A DNA stretch of 64,000 nt from Embleya scabrispora DSM 41855 (lineage in GTDB: Bacteria > Actinomycetota > Actinomycetes > Streptomycetales > Streptomycetaceae), in assembly GCF_000372745.1 (NCBI RefSeq), contig NZ_KB889585.1, forward strand, positions 62,001-126,000, in the 5' to 3' direction. Under the pieces are notes generated by a model, which saw only the letters and a program-made list of their open reading frames with translations, ran no database searches and had not been told where the DNA came from. The position numbers were made by a program, and so were the translations under genes. Shown here one piece after another: positions 48,180 to 53,301 of this stretch; the stretch's first letter is position 1; each line of letters opens with the position of its first letter.

Positions 48180-48185
48180 TACCGT
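48180..48185 (+). promoter_or_regulatory. -10 box TACCGT of the first sigma-fusion gene
   Basis: TACCGT lies 8 nt before the ATG at 48194; leaderless spacing. Confidence 0.45.
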
Positions 48186-48193
48186 GGGGCGGC

Positions 48194-49681
48194 ATGGCGG
48201 GTGGGGACGTTGCGGGGCAGGGATCCGGTACGGCGGACGTGACGGGCGCGGCGCCCGACGCCGTCGCTTTGTACGACGCCCACGGTGACGCCCTGTTCGG
48301 GTTCTGCGTGGCGCTGGGGTACGAGCCGGGGGTCGCGGCGCGGGCGGTGCGCGCGACGCTGGCGGCGGCGCCCGAGCGGATCCGCGCGCTGCGCGAGCCG
48401 AGCCGGGCCCGGGCGCTGCTGTACGGCCTGGCGCGCGTCGAGTGCGCCCGGGAGGCGGTCGACCGGCGTGGGCCCGGGGTGGTCGAGCAGGTGTTGGCCG
48501 CGGGCGGAGCGGTGTGGTCCGTGCCCGATCGGCAGCGGCTGGTGCCCCTGGTCCGGTACGCGTTGTGGGCGGTGGACGAGGTCGAGCGGATCGTGCTGGA
48601 CCTGTCCGTGCGGCATCGCCTGCGCGATCGGGAACTGGCCGATGTGCTGGCGCTGTCCGAGCGGCGGGTGGAACGGGCACTGAGCCGCGCCGGGGAACAG
48701 TTCGAGCACGCGCTCGCGGTGTACGCGGTGGCCACGCACGCGCGGCGGGACTGCCCCGAACTCGCGCTGCTGCTGCCGGACGCGGGCGCGGCGGTGGAGG
48801 CGTCGCTGCGCCAACCCCTGTACCTGCACGTCGACTCGTGCCCGGACTGCGTGGCGCTGCGGCCGGGGGAGGTGGACGCGCGGGCGGTGTTGGCCGCCGC
48901 GGTCCCGCCCGCGGCGCCGTACTCGATCCGGACCGAGCTGTTCGCGGCCGGGACGAGCGGCGCCGGTGGGCCGGTGGATCGGAGCGGTTTCCCGAAGGGG
49001 ATGGGCCGGCCCCGCTCGCGGGTTCCGGTCGTGGTGGGGGGTGCGGTGGCCGTGGCGCTGGTGCTCGGCCTGGCCGTGCTGGTGCGACCGGGCGACGGGG
49101 ACGCGGGCTCGCCGGTCGCGCGGGGTTCGGCCCAGGCTCCGGATCAGCCGGTGATCATTCATCCGCCCGAGGTGCCCACGCACGCGCCGAGTGTCGCGCC
49201 GTCGAGGCCGACCGGGTCGAGCGCGCCGACCGCGGTGCCGAGTACGCGCGCCGGTAGTGCGAAGCCCACCGCCCGCAGCAGCAGGAGCGCCAAGCCCCCG
49301 GCGGCCGGCCCCGCGTCGGCGGCCGGGCTGCCGGCGAACCGGCCGCGGTCGATGGAGACGACGCAGGGCAATCCGGCGCCGCGGGGCACCCTCGCGTGGT
49401 CGCGCACATCGGTGGACCTCGACGCGGGCGGTGCCGCGCAGACCGTCCGGCTCACCGCGACCGGTGGCCCGGTCACGTGGTCCGTGGCCGTGTCGGAAAA
49501 CGATTGGCTCACGGTGAGTCCGAATTCCGGAACGTTGGCCAATGGCCAGTCGATCTCGATCACGATCTCGGCAAATGCGGACAGCGCACCGACCGCCGCG
49601 TGGGCGGTCACTCTTTCGGCGCAGCCGACGGGTGTTTCGCTCGTGGTCCACGGCGCGAGTCGTCGCGTGGATGTTCGATGA
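48194..49681 (+). CDS. Membrane-tethered ECF-sigma-like / zinc-motif / BACON fusion protein (first copy)
   Basis: The product has 495 residues in five parts. Residues 26-90 look like sigma region 2 (ALYDAHGDALFGFC, ARALLYGLARVECARE). Residues 125-172 look like region 4 with an HTH (VDEVERIVLDLSVRHRLRDRELADVLALSERRVERALSRA). H212-x3-C216-x2-C219 is the zinc motif of anti-sigma ZAS domains. Residues 276-298 are one membrane span. A Pro/Ser/Thr linker (310-395) leads to an extracellular BACON-type beta domain (400-490, ENDWLTVSPNSGTLANGQSISITI). Sigma, anti-sigma-like and sensor parts are in one chain. It may bind RNA polymerase at the membrane or be released by proteolysis. Region-2 DNA-contact residues look degenerate. 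Confidence 0.8.
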   Translation: MAGGDVAGQGSGTADVTGAAPDAVALYDAHGDALFGFCVALGYEPGVAARAVRATLAAAPERIRALREPSRARALLYGLARVECAREAVDRRGPGVVEQVLAAGGAVWSVPDRQRLVPLVRYALWAVDEVERIVLDLSVRHRLRDRELADVLALSERRVERALSRAGEQFEHALAVYAVATHARRDCPELALLLPDAGAAVEASLRQPLYLHVDSCPDCVALRPGEVDARAVLAAAVPPAAPYSIRTELFAAGTSGAGGPVDRSGFPKGMGRPRSRVPVVVGGAVAVALVLGLAVLVRPGDGDAGSPVARGSAQAPDQPVIIHPPEVPTHAPSVAPSRPTGSSAPTAVPSTRAGSAKPTARSSRSAKPPAAGPASAAGLPANRPRSMETTQGNPAPRGTLAWSRTSVDLDAGGAAQTVRLTATGGPVTWSVAVSENDWLTVSPNSGTLANGQSISITISANADSAPTAAWAVTLSAQPTGVSLVVHGASRRVDVR

Positions 49682-49785
49682 AGGAATGCGGCCAAAGGTG
49701 ACGGATATTCACTCGAAAGTATGATTGTCGACCTCGAAAGGCGTATGAAAGTGCAAATCACCTGAGTCGGCGGCTCTCGGACACC

Positions 49786-49791
49786 TACGTT
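49786..49791 (+). promoter_or_regulatory. -10 box TACGTT of the second sigma-fusion gene
   Basis: TACGTT lies 7 nt before the GTG at 49799; leaderless spacing. Each fusion gene thus has its own promoter. Confidence 0.5.
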
Positions 49792-49798
49792 CACGAGC

Positions 49799-51457
49799 GT
49801 GACGGATTCGGTGACCGGCCCGACGACCTCCCTCGGAGGTGCTCCTCGCTTCGCTTCCCCCGCCGCGGTGCTTTCGTGGGGACGCGCCGCCTACGACGCC
49901 TATGCCGAAGGGCTCTACACCTACTGCCTCTCGGTGCTTCGGGATCACCAGGCGGCGGCGGAGTCGCTGCGCAGCACCTTCGTGCTGGCCGATCGTCACA
50001 TCGGCCGGCTTCCCGACCTGGACCTACTCAAACCGTGGTTGTACGCGCTCGCCCGGTACGAGTGCCTGGTCCGGCTGGACGCGCACGTGCGGGTGGGCAC
50101 CGGGCCCGCGCGGCCCGAGGACGTGCGGGTGGTGTGGGCGCACGAGCGCAGCCTGCCGCTGCTGGCCGCGGACGTCGACCAGGTCGCCGATCCGTTCCCC
50201 GGCACCGAGGCGGGCCGATCCCCCGCCCGGCGCGCCGACCTGGACGAACTGGCCTGGCCGGACGCGGTGGGCCTGGTGCCGGAGCAACGCGAGGCGCTCG
50301 AACTGTCCGTGCGGCACGGGCTCGACCCGCGCGGCCTGGCCGCCGTGCTCGGTTGCGACGAACAGCACGCCCGCAGCCTGCTCCTGGCGGCCGGCCGCGA
50401 GGTGGACCGGACCCGGGCGGCGATGGCGGGCGCCGAGGCGTCGCACGGGTGCCCCGAGGGCCAGGAGCTGGCCACCGGGCGGCTCACCTCCGCGCTCCGC
50501 GAGCGCCTGATCGCGCACGTCGAGACGTGTCGGCGGTGTGGCCCGCAGGTGCGCCGCGCCGCGGCCCGCCTGGCGCCGACCACGGGCGCGGCCGCGGCGC
50601 CGGTCGGGCTCGCGCTGATCGCCCCGCCGGCGGCGCTGCGGATCGAGGTGCTGGGCGAGGTCGGCAAGGGGCGCTCGGCCCAGCGGCCGCCGGAGATCGC
50701 CCGGCGGGTCGCCGAGTTCGACCGGGCCGGCTTCCCGGTCTTTCGGGCAGGCGTGGTCGAGCGCGGCAATCGCCGCCGGGCCACGGTGATCGCGGCGGTC
50801 GTGGTGGCCGCGGTGGTCGCCGCGCCCGCGCTCGCCCTGTGGCAGGCGTCCGGCGGCTCGGCCGGCGAGTCGACCGCCAAGGCCGTCACCATCGCCTCCG
50901 CGCGGGTGGAGGACCCGGGCGACCCGGCCGCGGCGCCGGCTCCGATCGAACCGGCGCGGTCGCCGGCCACGACGGGGAGCCCGACCGTCCCGAGTTCGCC
51001 GCACGGGCAGGGCTTGGCCCCGGGGCCGTCCACGGCGATGGTCGCCTCGATCGCATCCGAGGTCGTCGCGCCCGGTGTCGCCGCGCTTCCACCGCCCGGT
51101 TCGACCGCCCCGCTGCCGCTGTTGGTGACCGCCACCCACACCGGTGACCACACGCTCGTCACGCTGCGCAACACCGGCTCGGTCCCGGTCGACTGGCAGG
51201 CCCGGACGGCGGCGGCCTGGCTGCGACCGAGCCCCGCGCAGGGCACGCTCGCCCCGGGGCAGCAGGACACCGTCACCGTGTCGGTGGATCCCAAGCGGGC
51301 CCCGCGGGGATCGTGGACGGCCGCGGTGGTGGTGGATCCGGGCGGCACGGTGATCACCATCGAGGGCCGCACCGGCGAGCCGACGCCGTCGCGCCCCCCG
51401 GCCGGCACACGGCCCGCGCGAACAACGCCGCCGCGCAGTCCCGAGCCGACGGGCTGA
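49799..51457 (+). CDS. Membrane-tethered ECF-sigma-like / zinc-motif / BACON fusion protein (second copy)
   Basis: This 552-residue paralogue of the preceding protein has the same order of parts. Sigma region 2 covers about 30-95 ([34 protein letters not shown]). Region 4 covers about 155-207 ([41 protein letters not shown]). H240-x3-C244-x2-C247 is the zinc motif. A membrane span lies at about 328-349. A linker and a BACON-like domain (about 450-515, [25 protein letters not shown]) follow. Identity to the first copy is low outside motifs, so the duplication is old or the two serve different signals. It starts at a leaderless GTG. Possible roles are a membrane-held sigma factor or a transcription antagonist. 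Confidence 0.8.
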
Positions 51458-51524: not shown

Positions 51525-52268
51525 TCAGTCGACCGGATCCGCCGGATGCGGTGCGATCGGTCGGCCACCCGCGAGCCTGGCCTCACACGCCGCGACCAGT
51601 ACCGCGTAGGCCGCCTCGCCCATCAGCTCGCGCAGCTCCGGGCCGTACGACTCGTACACCGGCTCGCCGGCGCCGTGTGCCTCGGTGCTTCCGGTGCACC
51701 ACCAGTGCAGGTCGTGGCCGCCCGGGCCCCAGCCCCGGCGGTCGTACTCGCCGATCGTCACCATCAGCACGCGGGTCTCGTCCGGCCGGTCGATCCAGTC
51801 GTAGGTCCGGCGCACCGGCAGCTGCCAGCACACGTCCGGCTTGGTCTCCAGCGGGTGCACGCCCTCACGCAGCGCGAGGGCGTGCAGCGAACAGCCGGTG
51901 CCGCCGGCGAACCCGGGCCGGTTCAGGAACACGCACGCCCCGTCGACCAGCCGCGTGCGCTTGTCGCCGTCCTCGAACTCGCTGACGCCCTGCTCCATGG
52001 CCAGGTCGTGGAACTGCCAGGTCTGCGGCGTCAGCCGTTCCGCCCACGTCAGCACCCGCGTCTCGTCGTCCTCGTCCGACCAGTGCGCGCCCAGCGAGCA
52101 GCACCCGTCGGGCGCGCGGCCGGCCACGACGCCGTGACAACCGGCGCCGAAGATGCACTGCCAACGCGAGGTCAGCCAGGTCAGGTCGCAACGAAAGAGT
52201 TGATCGGCGTCCTCGGGGTCGGGGAATTCGAACCAAGCGCGCGGAAAATCCAGGTCTACCTCAGGCAC
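51525..52268 (-). CDS. YkgJ/DUF3109-like cysteine-cluster protein
   Basis: This 247-residue cytoplasmic protein is rich in conserved cysteines: [46 protein letters not shown], and KPDVCWQLP. The pattern of C...CC...CVF...CxxH...KPxxC matches the zinc/iron-chelating YkgJ/DUF3109 group, though spacing differs. It probably binds metal; the biochemical role is not known. A TACGCT -10 box lies 6 nt before the GTG at 52268, so it is probably leaderless. It is divergent from the Ppx/GppA gene and converges on the second sigma-fusion gene. Confidence 0.7.
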
Positions 52269-52274
52269 ACGACA

Positions 52275-52280
52275 AGCGTA
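52275..52280 (-). promoter_or_regulatory. -10 box TACGCT of the cysteine-cluster gene
   Basis: On the minus strand TACGCT is 6 nt before the GTG at 52268; leaderless spacing. Confidence 0.45.
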
Positions 52281-52361
52281 GGGCCCCGGTCCGGATGGTC
52301 GGTCGGGCAAAGGTGTGGCAACCGAGGGAACGCCCCCGCTCGCGCGTGTGGGGCGACGGAT

Positions 52362-52367
52362 TACCTT
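52362..52367 (+). promoter_or_regulatory. -10 box TACCTT of the Ppx/GppA gene
   Basis: TACCTT lies 7 nt before the ATG at 52375; leaderless spacing. Confidence 0.45.
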
Positions 52368-52374
52368 CGTGACC

Positions 52375-53301
52375 ATGCGACTCGGTGTTCTCGACGTGGG
52401 CTCCAATACGGTCCACCTGCTCGTGGTCGACGCCCATCAGGGTGCTCGACCCCTTCCCGCGTACTCGCACAAGCGCGAGTTGCGCCTGGCGGAACTCCTG
52501 GAGCCGGACGGGAGCATCGCCCCACACGGGGTCGATCTGCTGGTCCGGACGATGGCCGCCGCCCTGGAGATCGCCGAGGACAAGGGCGTCGAGGACCTGC
52601 TGCCGTTCGCCACGTCCGCGGTACGCGAGGCGGCCAACTCCGAGGCGGTGCTCGATCGGGTGCGGCGCGAGACCGGCGTGGACCTGCAGGTGCTGACCGG
52701 TGCCGACGAGGCCCGGCTGACCTTCCTGGCGGTGCGCCGCTGGTTCGGCTGGTCCTCCGGGCGGCTGCTCGTGCTCGACATCGGCGGCGGCTCGCTGGAA
52801 ATCGCGGCGGGCGTGGACGAGGAGCCGGACGCGGCGGCCTCGCTGCCGCTGGGCGCGGGCCGGCTCACCCGGGCCTGGCTGCACACCGACCCGCCATCCC
52901 CGGACGAGATGCGGGTGCTGCGCAAGCATGTACGCGCGGAGATCGCCCGAACGGTCGCCGAGTTCACCCGGCTCGGTCGGCCCGACCACGTGGTGGCCAC
53001 GTCCAAGACGTTCAAGCAGCTGGCCCGGATCGCCGGCGCGCCGGCCTCGGGCGAGGGCCCGTACGTCAAGCGCTCGCTCAGCCGGGCCGGTCTCGCCGAC
53101 TGGCTGCCCCGGCTCGCGGCGATGACCTCCAGCGAGCGGGCCGCCCTGCCGGGGGTGTCCGTGGGCCGGGCTCCGCAACTGGTCGCGGGTGCGATAGTCG
53201 CCGACGCGGCGTTGGACCTGTTCAACGTGGCGGCGCTGGAAGTGTGTCCGTGGGCGCTGCGCGAGGGGATCATCCTGCGGCGCCTGGACTGGATGGACTG
53301 A
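52375..53301 (+). CDS. Ppx/GppA family phosphatase (exopolyphosphatase)
   Basis: The 308-residue protein has the ASKHA phosphate-1 motif [19 protein letters not shown], the catalytic region [11 protein letters not shown], phosphate-2 [15 protein letters not shown], and a C-terminal adenosine-like loop [21 protein letters not shown]. It is the short, single-core form typical of actinomycetes (Ppx1/2 type) without the HD-like C-terminal domain of GppA. Expected substrates are polyphosphate or pppGpp. It is divergent from the cysteine-cluster gene with back-to-back leaderless promoters only about 100 bp apart. Confidence 0.92.

Follow-up and report, generated by a model that had tools for sequence, protein, structure and literature searches.

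Two neighbouring genes of Embleya scabrispora DSM 41855 raise the question of whether a sigma factor that is joined, in a single chain, to a zinc anti-sigma (ZAS) motif, a membrane span and an extracellular beta domain still directs transcription or now does something else. The genes lie within a stretch of 64,000 nucleotides, called here the window, and encode the proteins P0001 and P0002 (Table 1). An earlier note on this DNA had proposed both open reading frames and had read the same order in their products, namely sigma-2-like domain, sigma-4-like domain, ZAS motif, one membrane span and BACON domain. Both frames are indeed present, and scans, alignment and structural models agree on this order in both proteins. 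P0001 and P0002 are 29% identical over the sigma and ZAS parts and about 36% identical over BACON, and in each of them arginines precede the span and a Pro/Ala/Ser linker separates it from the BACON domain.

Table 1. Features of the gene pair and of its promoters (window coordinates).
Feature	Position	Strand	Evidence or remark
TACCGT, -10-like element of first gene, 8 nt before ATG	48180..48185	+	possible leaderless start
First gene, P0001, 495 aa	48194..49681	+	diverged paralogue with pseudo-sigma, ZAS, TM and BACON parts; separate tree clade
P0001 sigma-2-like domain, residues 20-87	48251..48454	+	model helices, residue table, dN/dS
P0001 sigma-4-like domain, residues 113-185	48530..48748	+	model; TIGR02937 partial match, E 0.0024
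P0001 ZAS segment, zinc ligands C187, H212, C216, C219	48752..48871	+	ligands invariant; dN/dS 0.165
P0001 juxtamembrane Gly-Phe-Pro, residues 265-267	48986..48994	+	invariant in alignments
P0001 membrane span, residues 277-297, arginines on cytoplasmic side	49022..49084	+	sequence; predicted helix 284-294, low confidence
P0001 BACON domain	49388..49663	+	PF19190, 41.9 bits; model strands 399-487
CGAAAGGCGTATGAAAGTGC, upstream element 51 nt from -10	49735..49754	+	fixed position in 47 distinct family promoters
TACGTT, -10 element of second gene, 7 nt before GTG	49786..49791	+	family promoter alignment
Second gene, P0002, 552 aa	49799..51457	+	radA-linked pseudo-sigma family of Streptomycetaceae
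P0002 sigma-2-like domain, residues 21-99	49859..50095	+	model pLDDT mostly 82-94 over residues 31-90
P0002 sigma-4-like domain, residues 148-214	50240..50440	+	model; profile match to SigL
P0002 ZAS segment, zinc ligands C218, H240, C244, C247	50444..50569	+	invariant ligands; weak RsiW match
P0002 juxtamembrane Gly-Phe-Pro, residues 311-313	50729..50737	+	invariant
P0002 membrane span with conserved Pro, residues 328-349	50780..50845	+	model helix 318-341, low confidence
P0002 Pro/Ala/Ser-rich extracellular linker	50846..51118	+	mostly low pLDDT; dN/dS 0.6-1.1
P0002 BACON domain	51119..51379	+	PF19190, 37.2 bits; fold matches PapD/MSP-like and GH115 beta-domains

The beta domain was rightly assigned to the BACON type, as Pfam BACON_2 exceeds its cut-off of 25 in both proteins. 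The Hx3Cx2C motif is likewise genuine: with an upstream ligand it reads Cys...His-x3-Cys-x2-Cys, the four ligands are invariant in an alignment of 11 proteins, and alignment and model place them on a short helical domain. In single-sequence Pfam scans, sigma-2, sigma-4 and zf-HC2 of P0001 and P0002 stay below cut-off. A profile built from eight homologues matches Mycobacterium tuberculosis SigL across both sigma-2 and sigma-4 (E 1.2e-12), as the proposed similarity to regions 2 and 4 predicted, and weakly matches the ZAS domain of RsiW (E 0.012). Homology to ECF sigma factors over sigma-2 and sigma-4 is established by this match and by the tree described below. Pfam r4_2 exceeds its cut-off in one family member (L026), and the PhyR sigma-like domain gives weak Pfam matches in scans of the window proteins and their relatives. 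The AlphaFold model of P0002, in which both sigma domains and BACON are predicted with high confidence and the membrane helix with low confidence, resembles ECF sigma factors in complex with anti-sigma factors (5uxx, TM 0.67; 5wuq, TM 0.63; target-normalised). In P0001, the helices of the model are sigma-like, but the best 50 matches of the fold search are all beta-domains, mostly PapD/MSP-like; hence the sigma fold of P0001 is supported by its sequence and by its homology to P0002.

The family is a nearly constant feature of Streptomycetaceae, at one locus. Of 121 genomes sampled there, 117 have a match (E <= 1e-20). Nearly all carry a single copy; Embleya and two of the three genomes of the neighbouring genus, Yinghuangia type, carry two. 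In one locus of this two-copy group (L025) only the P0002 type is found, directly adjoining radA. The order mutY-disA-radA-gene-conserved protein-ppx-ilvD is fixed in 20 longer loci, over the part that each locus or the search covers; at one of these, L097, the gene has diverged beyond the reach of tblastn. In shorter loci, radA adjoins the gene wherever the locus extends far enough. In the window, radA and disA are divergently transcribed, ahead of the P0001 and P0002 genes. The vicinity to radA and disA pointed out earlier is thus found both here and in the relatives. The closest named relative at the locus is Embleya hyalina (disA 99% and radA 96% identical). On the other side, 51525-52406 (minus strand) encodes a conserved protein, about 70% identical, which consistently adjoins the family gene on its downstream side in Streptomycetaceae. 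Homologues from Actinomadura and Nonomuraea occupy a different locus, upstream of genes for an NlpC/P60 hydrolase, ppa and dacB. The Streptosporangiales members of the clade, L005:5923-7605 and L006:6944-8362, precede an NlpC/P60 hydrolase, ppa and dacB, a neighbourhood that hints at a link with the cell wall. In a sample of 296 genomes across the phylum, 32 contain matches at E <= 1e-18, intact fused sigma factors included. Among plasmids, the only matches were a weak sigma match in Thermomicrobium and one in a Nonomuraea replicon that was deposited as a plasmid but is a chromosome.

What sets the family apart is its region 2. We take the region 2.2 Asp and Gln to contact core RNA polymerase, from what is known of region 2.2 of sigma70. 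The Asp is found in 18 of 19 sigma factors of the same genome (19 of the 71, from a set of 30 loci of which some gave no usable alignment) and in 19 of 21 fused relatives, against 2 of 53 radA-linked proteins and none of four P0001-type proteins. For the Gln, the corresponding counts are 18/19, 16/21, 0/53 and 0/4. In P0002 itself, the positions of the consensus Asp (Glu or Ser here), Gln and Asn are all altered. The Asn belongs to the pocket for the -10 element. In SigH, Asn88 opens the -10 base pair (PMC6411747), and the spacing of W81, I85 and N88 is identical to that of W80 and positions 84 and 87 here, on which the equivalence is based. This Asn is present in 13 of the 19 own-genome sigma factors and 15 of the 21 fused relatives, and in none of the 53 radA-linked or four P0001-type proteins, where Trp, Tyr, His, Val, Ser or Thr stands in its place. 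The Trp of the Trp/Asn pair is retained by the P0002 family only; in P0001-type proteins it is replaced by Leu and the Asn by Val, Ser or Thr. A basic stretch that follows region 2.4 has also been lost. In the second-gene family, Trp80 and Arg86 are nevertheless invariant and sigma-4 is well preserved.

Profile scans point the same way. Pfam Sigma70_r2 exceeds its cut-off in all four intact relatives tested. None of the five radA-linked proteins tested gives a match to it at E <= 0.05, and one Streptosporangiales member scores under the cut-off; neither P0001 nor P0002 is among the 71 Sigma70_r2 matches of their own genome. However, when a canonical sigma-2 model is used, P0002-type proteins score within the range of real sigma factors and several own-genome sigma factors score lower, so that a low profile score by itself is no proof. 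The pattern of key residues is the stronger sequence evidence of degeneracy. The suspicion that the region-2 residues are degenerate is thereby confirmed and put into numbers. Elsewhere in the same genome, L134 is an ECF sigma factor with an intact region 2, as judged from its sigma-2 sequence and long frame.

A maximum likelihood tree of the sigma and ZAS part bears on the origin of this state. P0001-type, P0002-type, Streptomyces and two Streptosporangiales proteins form one clade (support 100/91), the sister of which is an intact fused ECF sigma factor, L058 (98/89), and both together fall within a wider set of intact fused ECF sigma factors. This placement is consistent with a degenerate state that originated once. 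P0001-type proteins make up their own clade on a long branch, with support of 96/69 at the next node; P0001 may be an old paralogue or a fast-evolving tandem duplicate. An independent tandem pair, L064 and L100 of a single genome, consists of intact fused ECF sigma proteins.

These results bear on the two functions initially proposed, a one-component transcription switch and a membrane decoy for RNA polymerase. The fused chain of sigma factor, ZAS, membrane span and sensor is real. It is not unprecedented, since ECF48, ECF52 and ECF53 sigma factors carry the same ZAS-membrane extension (PMC8999054, PMC5826349), and P0001 and P0002 do have their order of sigma domain, zinc finger, TM and extracellular domain. 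The pair could therefore encode divergent but working membrane sigma factors of this kind, which a signal would release by proteolysis to direct RNA polymerase. The architecture, as in SCO4117 and ECF53 (PMC5826349, PMC8999054), the retention of sigma-4, Trp80 and Arg86, and the strong selection on sigma-2 described below are in keeping with such a role. Yet a sigma domain recognised as intact is expected of ECF48, ECF52 and ECF53 proteins, and here Sigma70_r2 is absent or below cut-off. Moreover, the consensus Gln and Asn are missing from all members scored and the Asp from nearly all, the basic stretch is gone as well, and intact fused ECF sigma factors of Streptomyces genomes retain the region 2.2 signature DVDDVVQET. 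We consider a working sigma factor unlikely, though a serious contender. The alternative of a decoy that sequesters core RNA polymerase at the membrane would agree with the modelled sigma fold, but the residues lost are the region 2.2 ones expected at the beta-prime coiled coil, contacts that are conserved among ECF sigma factors (PMC6411747). With these contact residues lost, we rejected the decoy, which is highly improbable. Both switch and decoy are disfavoured because the whole clade has lost the region 2.2 signature and the promoter-melting Asn, which its intact fused relatives have kept.

Selection shows that the protein is maintained all the same. Values of dN/dS were obtained by the Nei-Gojobori method in very GC-rich DNA, where only their ranking is usable, and some P0002 segments rest on few pairs. 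With this reading, the sigma-2-like part of P0002 ranks lowest between Embleya and Yinghuangia (95% identity, median dN/dS 0.044), ahead of ZAS (0.44), BACON (0.49) and the linker (0.70). P0002 is thus a maintained pseudo-sigma protein, with the sigma-2-like part as its most constrained portion. Among Streptomyces family members, the membrane span is the most constrained (0.128), followed by sigma-4 (0.30). In Embleya P0001, compared over three sequences, ZAS is constrained (0.165) and sigma-2 relaxed (0.51). A pseudogene was rejected on account of the low dN/dS, and a chance open reading frame on account of conservation in over 100 genomes. The same values bear on an envelope or structural role, in which the sigma-like and ZAS parts would be an inert folded cytosolic anchor and BACON would work at the cell wall. 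TM and BACON are retained across the radA-linked family, and BACON and the linker evolve fast, as surface contacts would. Conservation, however, is far better in the sigma-2-like part and at the zinc ligands than in BACON, and we regard an inert anchor as quite improbable.

Each gene had also been credited with its own leaderless promoter. For the second gene the case is strong: in 50 of 53 aligned rows, a few of them duplicates, a TANNNT element is followed after 5-9 nt by an in-frame ATG or GTG. A leaderless start of the first gene is no more than plausible; the TACCGT is kept in Embleya locus L001, and spacing and sequence vary elsewhere. Further upstream, the element shared by the 47 distinct promoters is mostly ACCCGNANGG-N-TTAA-like, alternatively written ACCCGNANGGNTTAA-like. 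The Embleya version retains a CGAAAG core with flanks unlike the Streptomyces consensus, and a search of the window for the Streptomyces-type element, with one mismatch allowed, found none. The upstream element is probably a regulatory site, for an activator or as an operator.

We propose that P0001 and P0002 are each a membrane-anchored pseudo-sigma receptor that signals by binding a protein rather than by recognizing a promoter, a reading to which we give about an even chance. Architecture and phylogeny show that they descend from a one-component ECF sigma factor whose chain continued into a zinc anti-sigma domain, a membrane helix and a beta-domain outside the cell. The sigma part of this lineage has kept its fold, in P0002 under strong selection, and its sequence has lost the conserved residues for RNA polymerase contact and promoter melting; with these gone, the proteins most likely no longer initiate transcription. 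The BACON domain would sense the cell-wall space, and the signal would either alter the packing of ZAS against the sigma-like domain or lead to cleavage close to the membrane helix, which contains a conserved Pro. The pseudo-sigma module, once exposed or released, would then bind another protein. In the version we prefer, it would mimic a genuine sigma factor and titrate the anti-sigma factor belonging to that factor, by analogy with PhyR. P0001 may by now act mainly as an inhibitor-type partner, since its ZAS is constrained, its sigma-2 is relaxed and it evolves faster. Against a pseudo-sigma receptor speak the invariant Trp80 and Arg86 and the preserved sigma-4, with the r4_2 match of L026; DNA or RNA polymerase may still be contacted through other residues. 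Somewhat more tentatively, at slightly under an even chance, we view the radA-linked proteins as core receptors of Streptomycetaceae, in which the whole sigma factor has become a non-transcribing module with a fused ZAS, and the Embleya/Yinghuangia pair as having divided roles.

We found no paper in the open-access literature on the combination of ECF and BACON, nor on SCO3539, which may be the locus tag of the Streptomyces coelicolor orthologue. What is new, within the open-access literature searched, is therefore a conserved pseudo-sigma branch that sits beside radA/disA in every locus examined. If the proposal is true, it would show a route from sigma factor to receptor module. The gene, being single-copy, is also amenable to deletion in a laboratory Streptomyces, from which the binding partner of such a module could be learned.

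The pseudo-sigma module may be likened to pseudokinases. The sigma-like domain of PhyR is a sigma fold that binds an anti-sigma factor, not promoters; unlike the present family, PhyR is soluble, has a receiver domain and is devoid of ZAS and membrane span. RsiW-like class I (ZAS) anti-sigma factors share the Hx3Cx2C motif on a helical domain and the membrane anchor (PMC7406223), but are separate proteins from the sigma factor that they inhibit. ECF53 and ECF48 have the C-terminal ZAS-like and membrane extension, and proteolytic activation is predicted for them (PMC8999054). Likely ECF53/ECF48 counterparts with an intact region 2 were found in L143, L146, L154 and L064. The first three, from Streptomycetaceae, join an intact sigma factor to ZAS, TM and an extracellular domain and are likely ECF53-type comparators; in contrast to the family, they keep a DVDDVVQET-like region 2.2, and their outside parts look by eye SCP/CAP-like or glycosidase-like. 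The studied case of ECF52 is SCO4117 of S. coelicolor, which, like the family, is actinobacterial and combines in one chain an ECF sigma factor, a zinc finger, a span, a proline-rich linker and an extracellular domain (PMC5826349). SCO4117 carries a carbohydrate-binding module, adjoins atrA and affects the transcription of many genes (PMC5826349), whereas the family carries BACON, adjoins radA and has a degenerate region 2, the two being compared by locus and domain. The family is a separate degenerate branch of the proteins built on the ECF48/52/53 plan.
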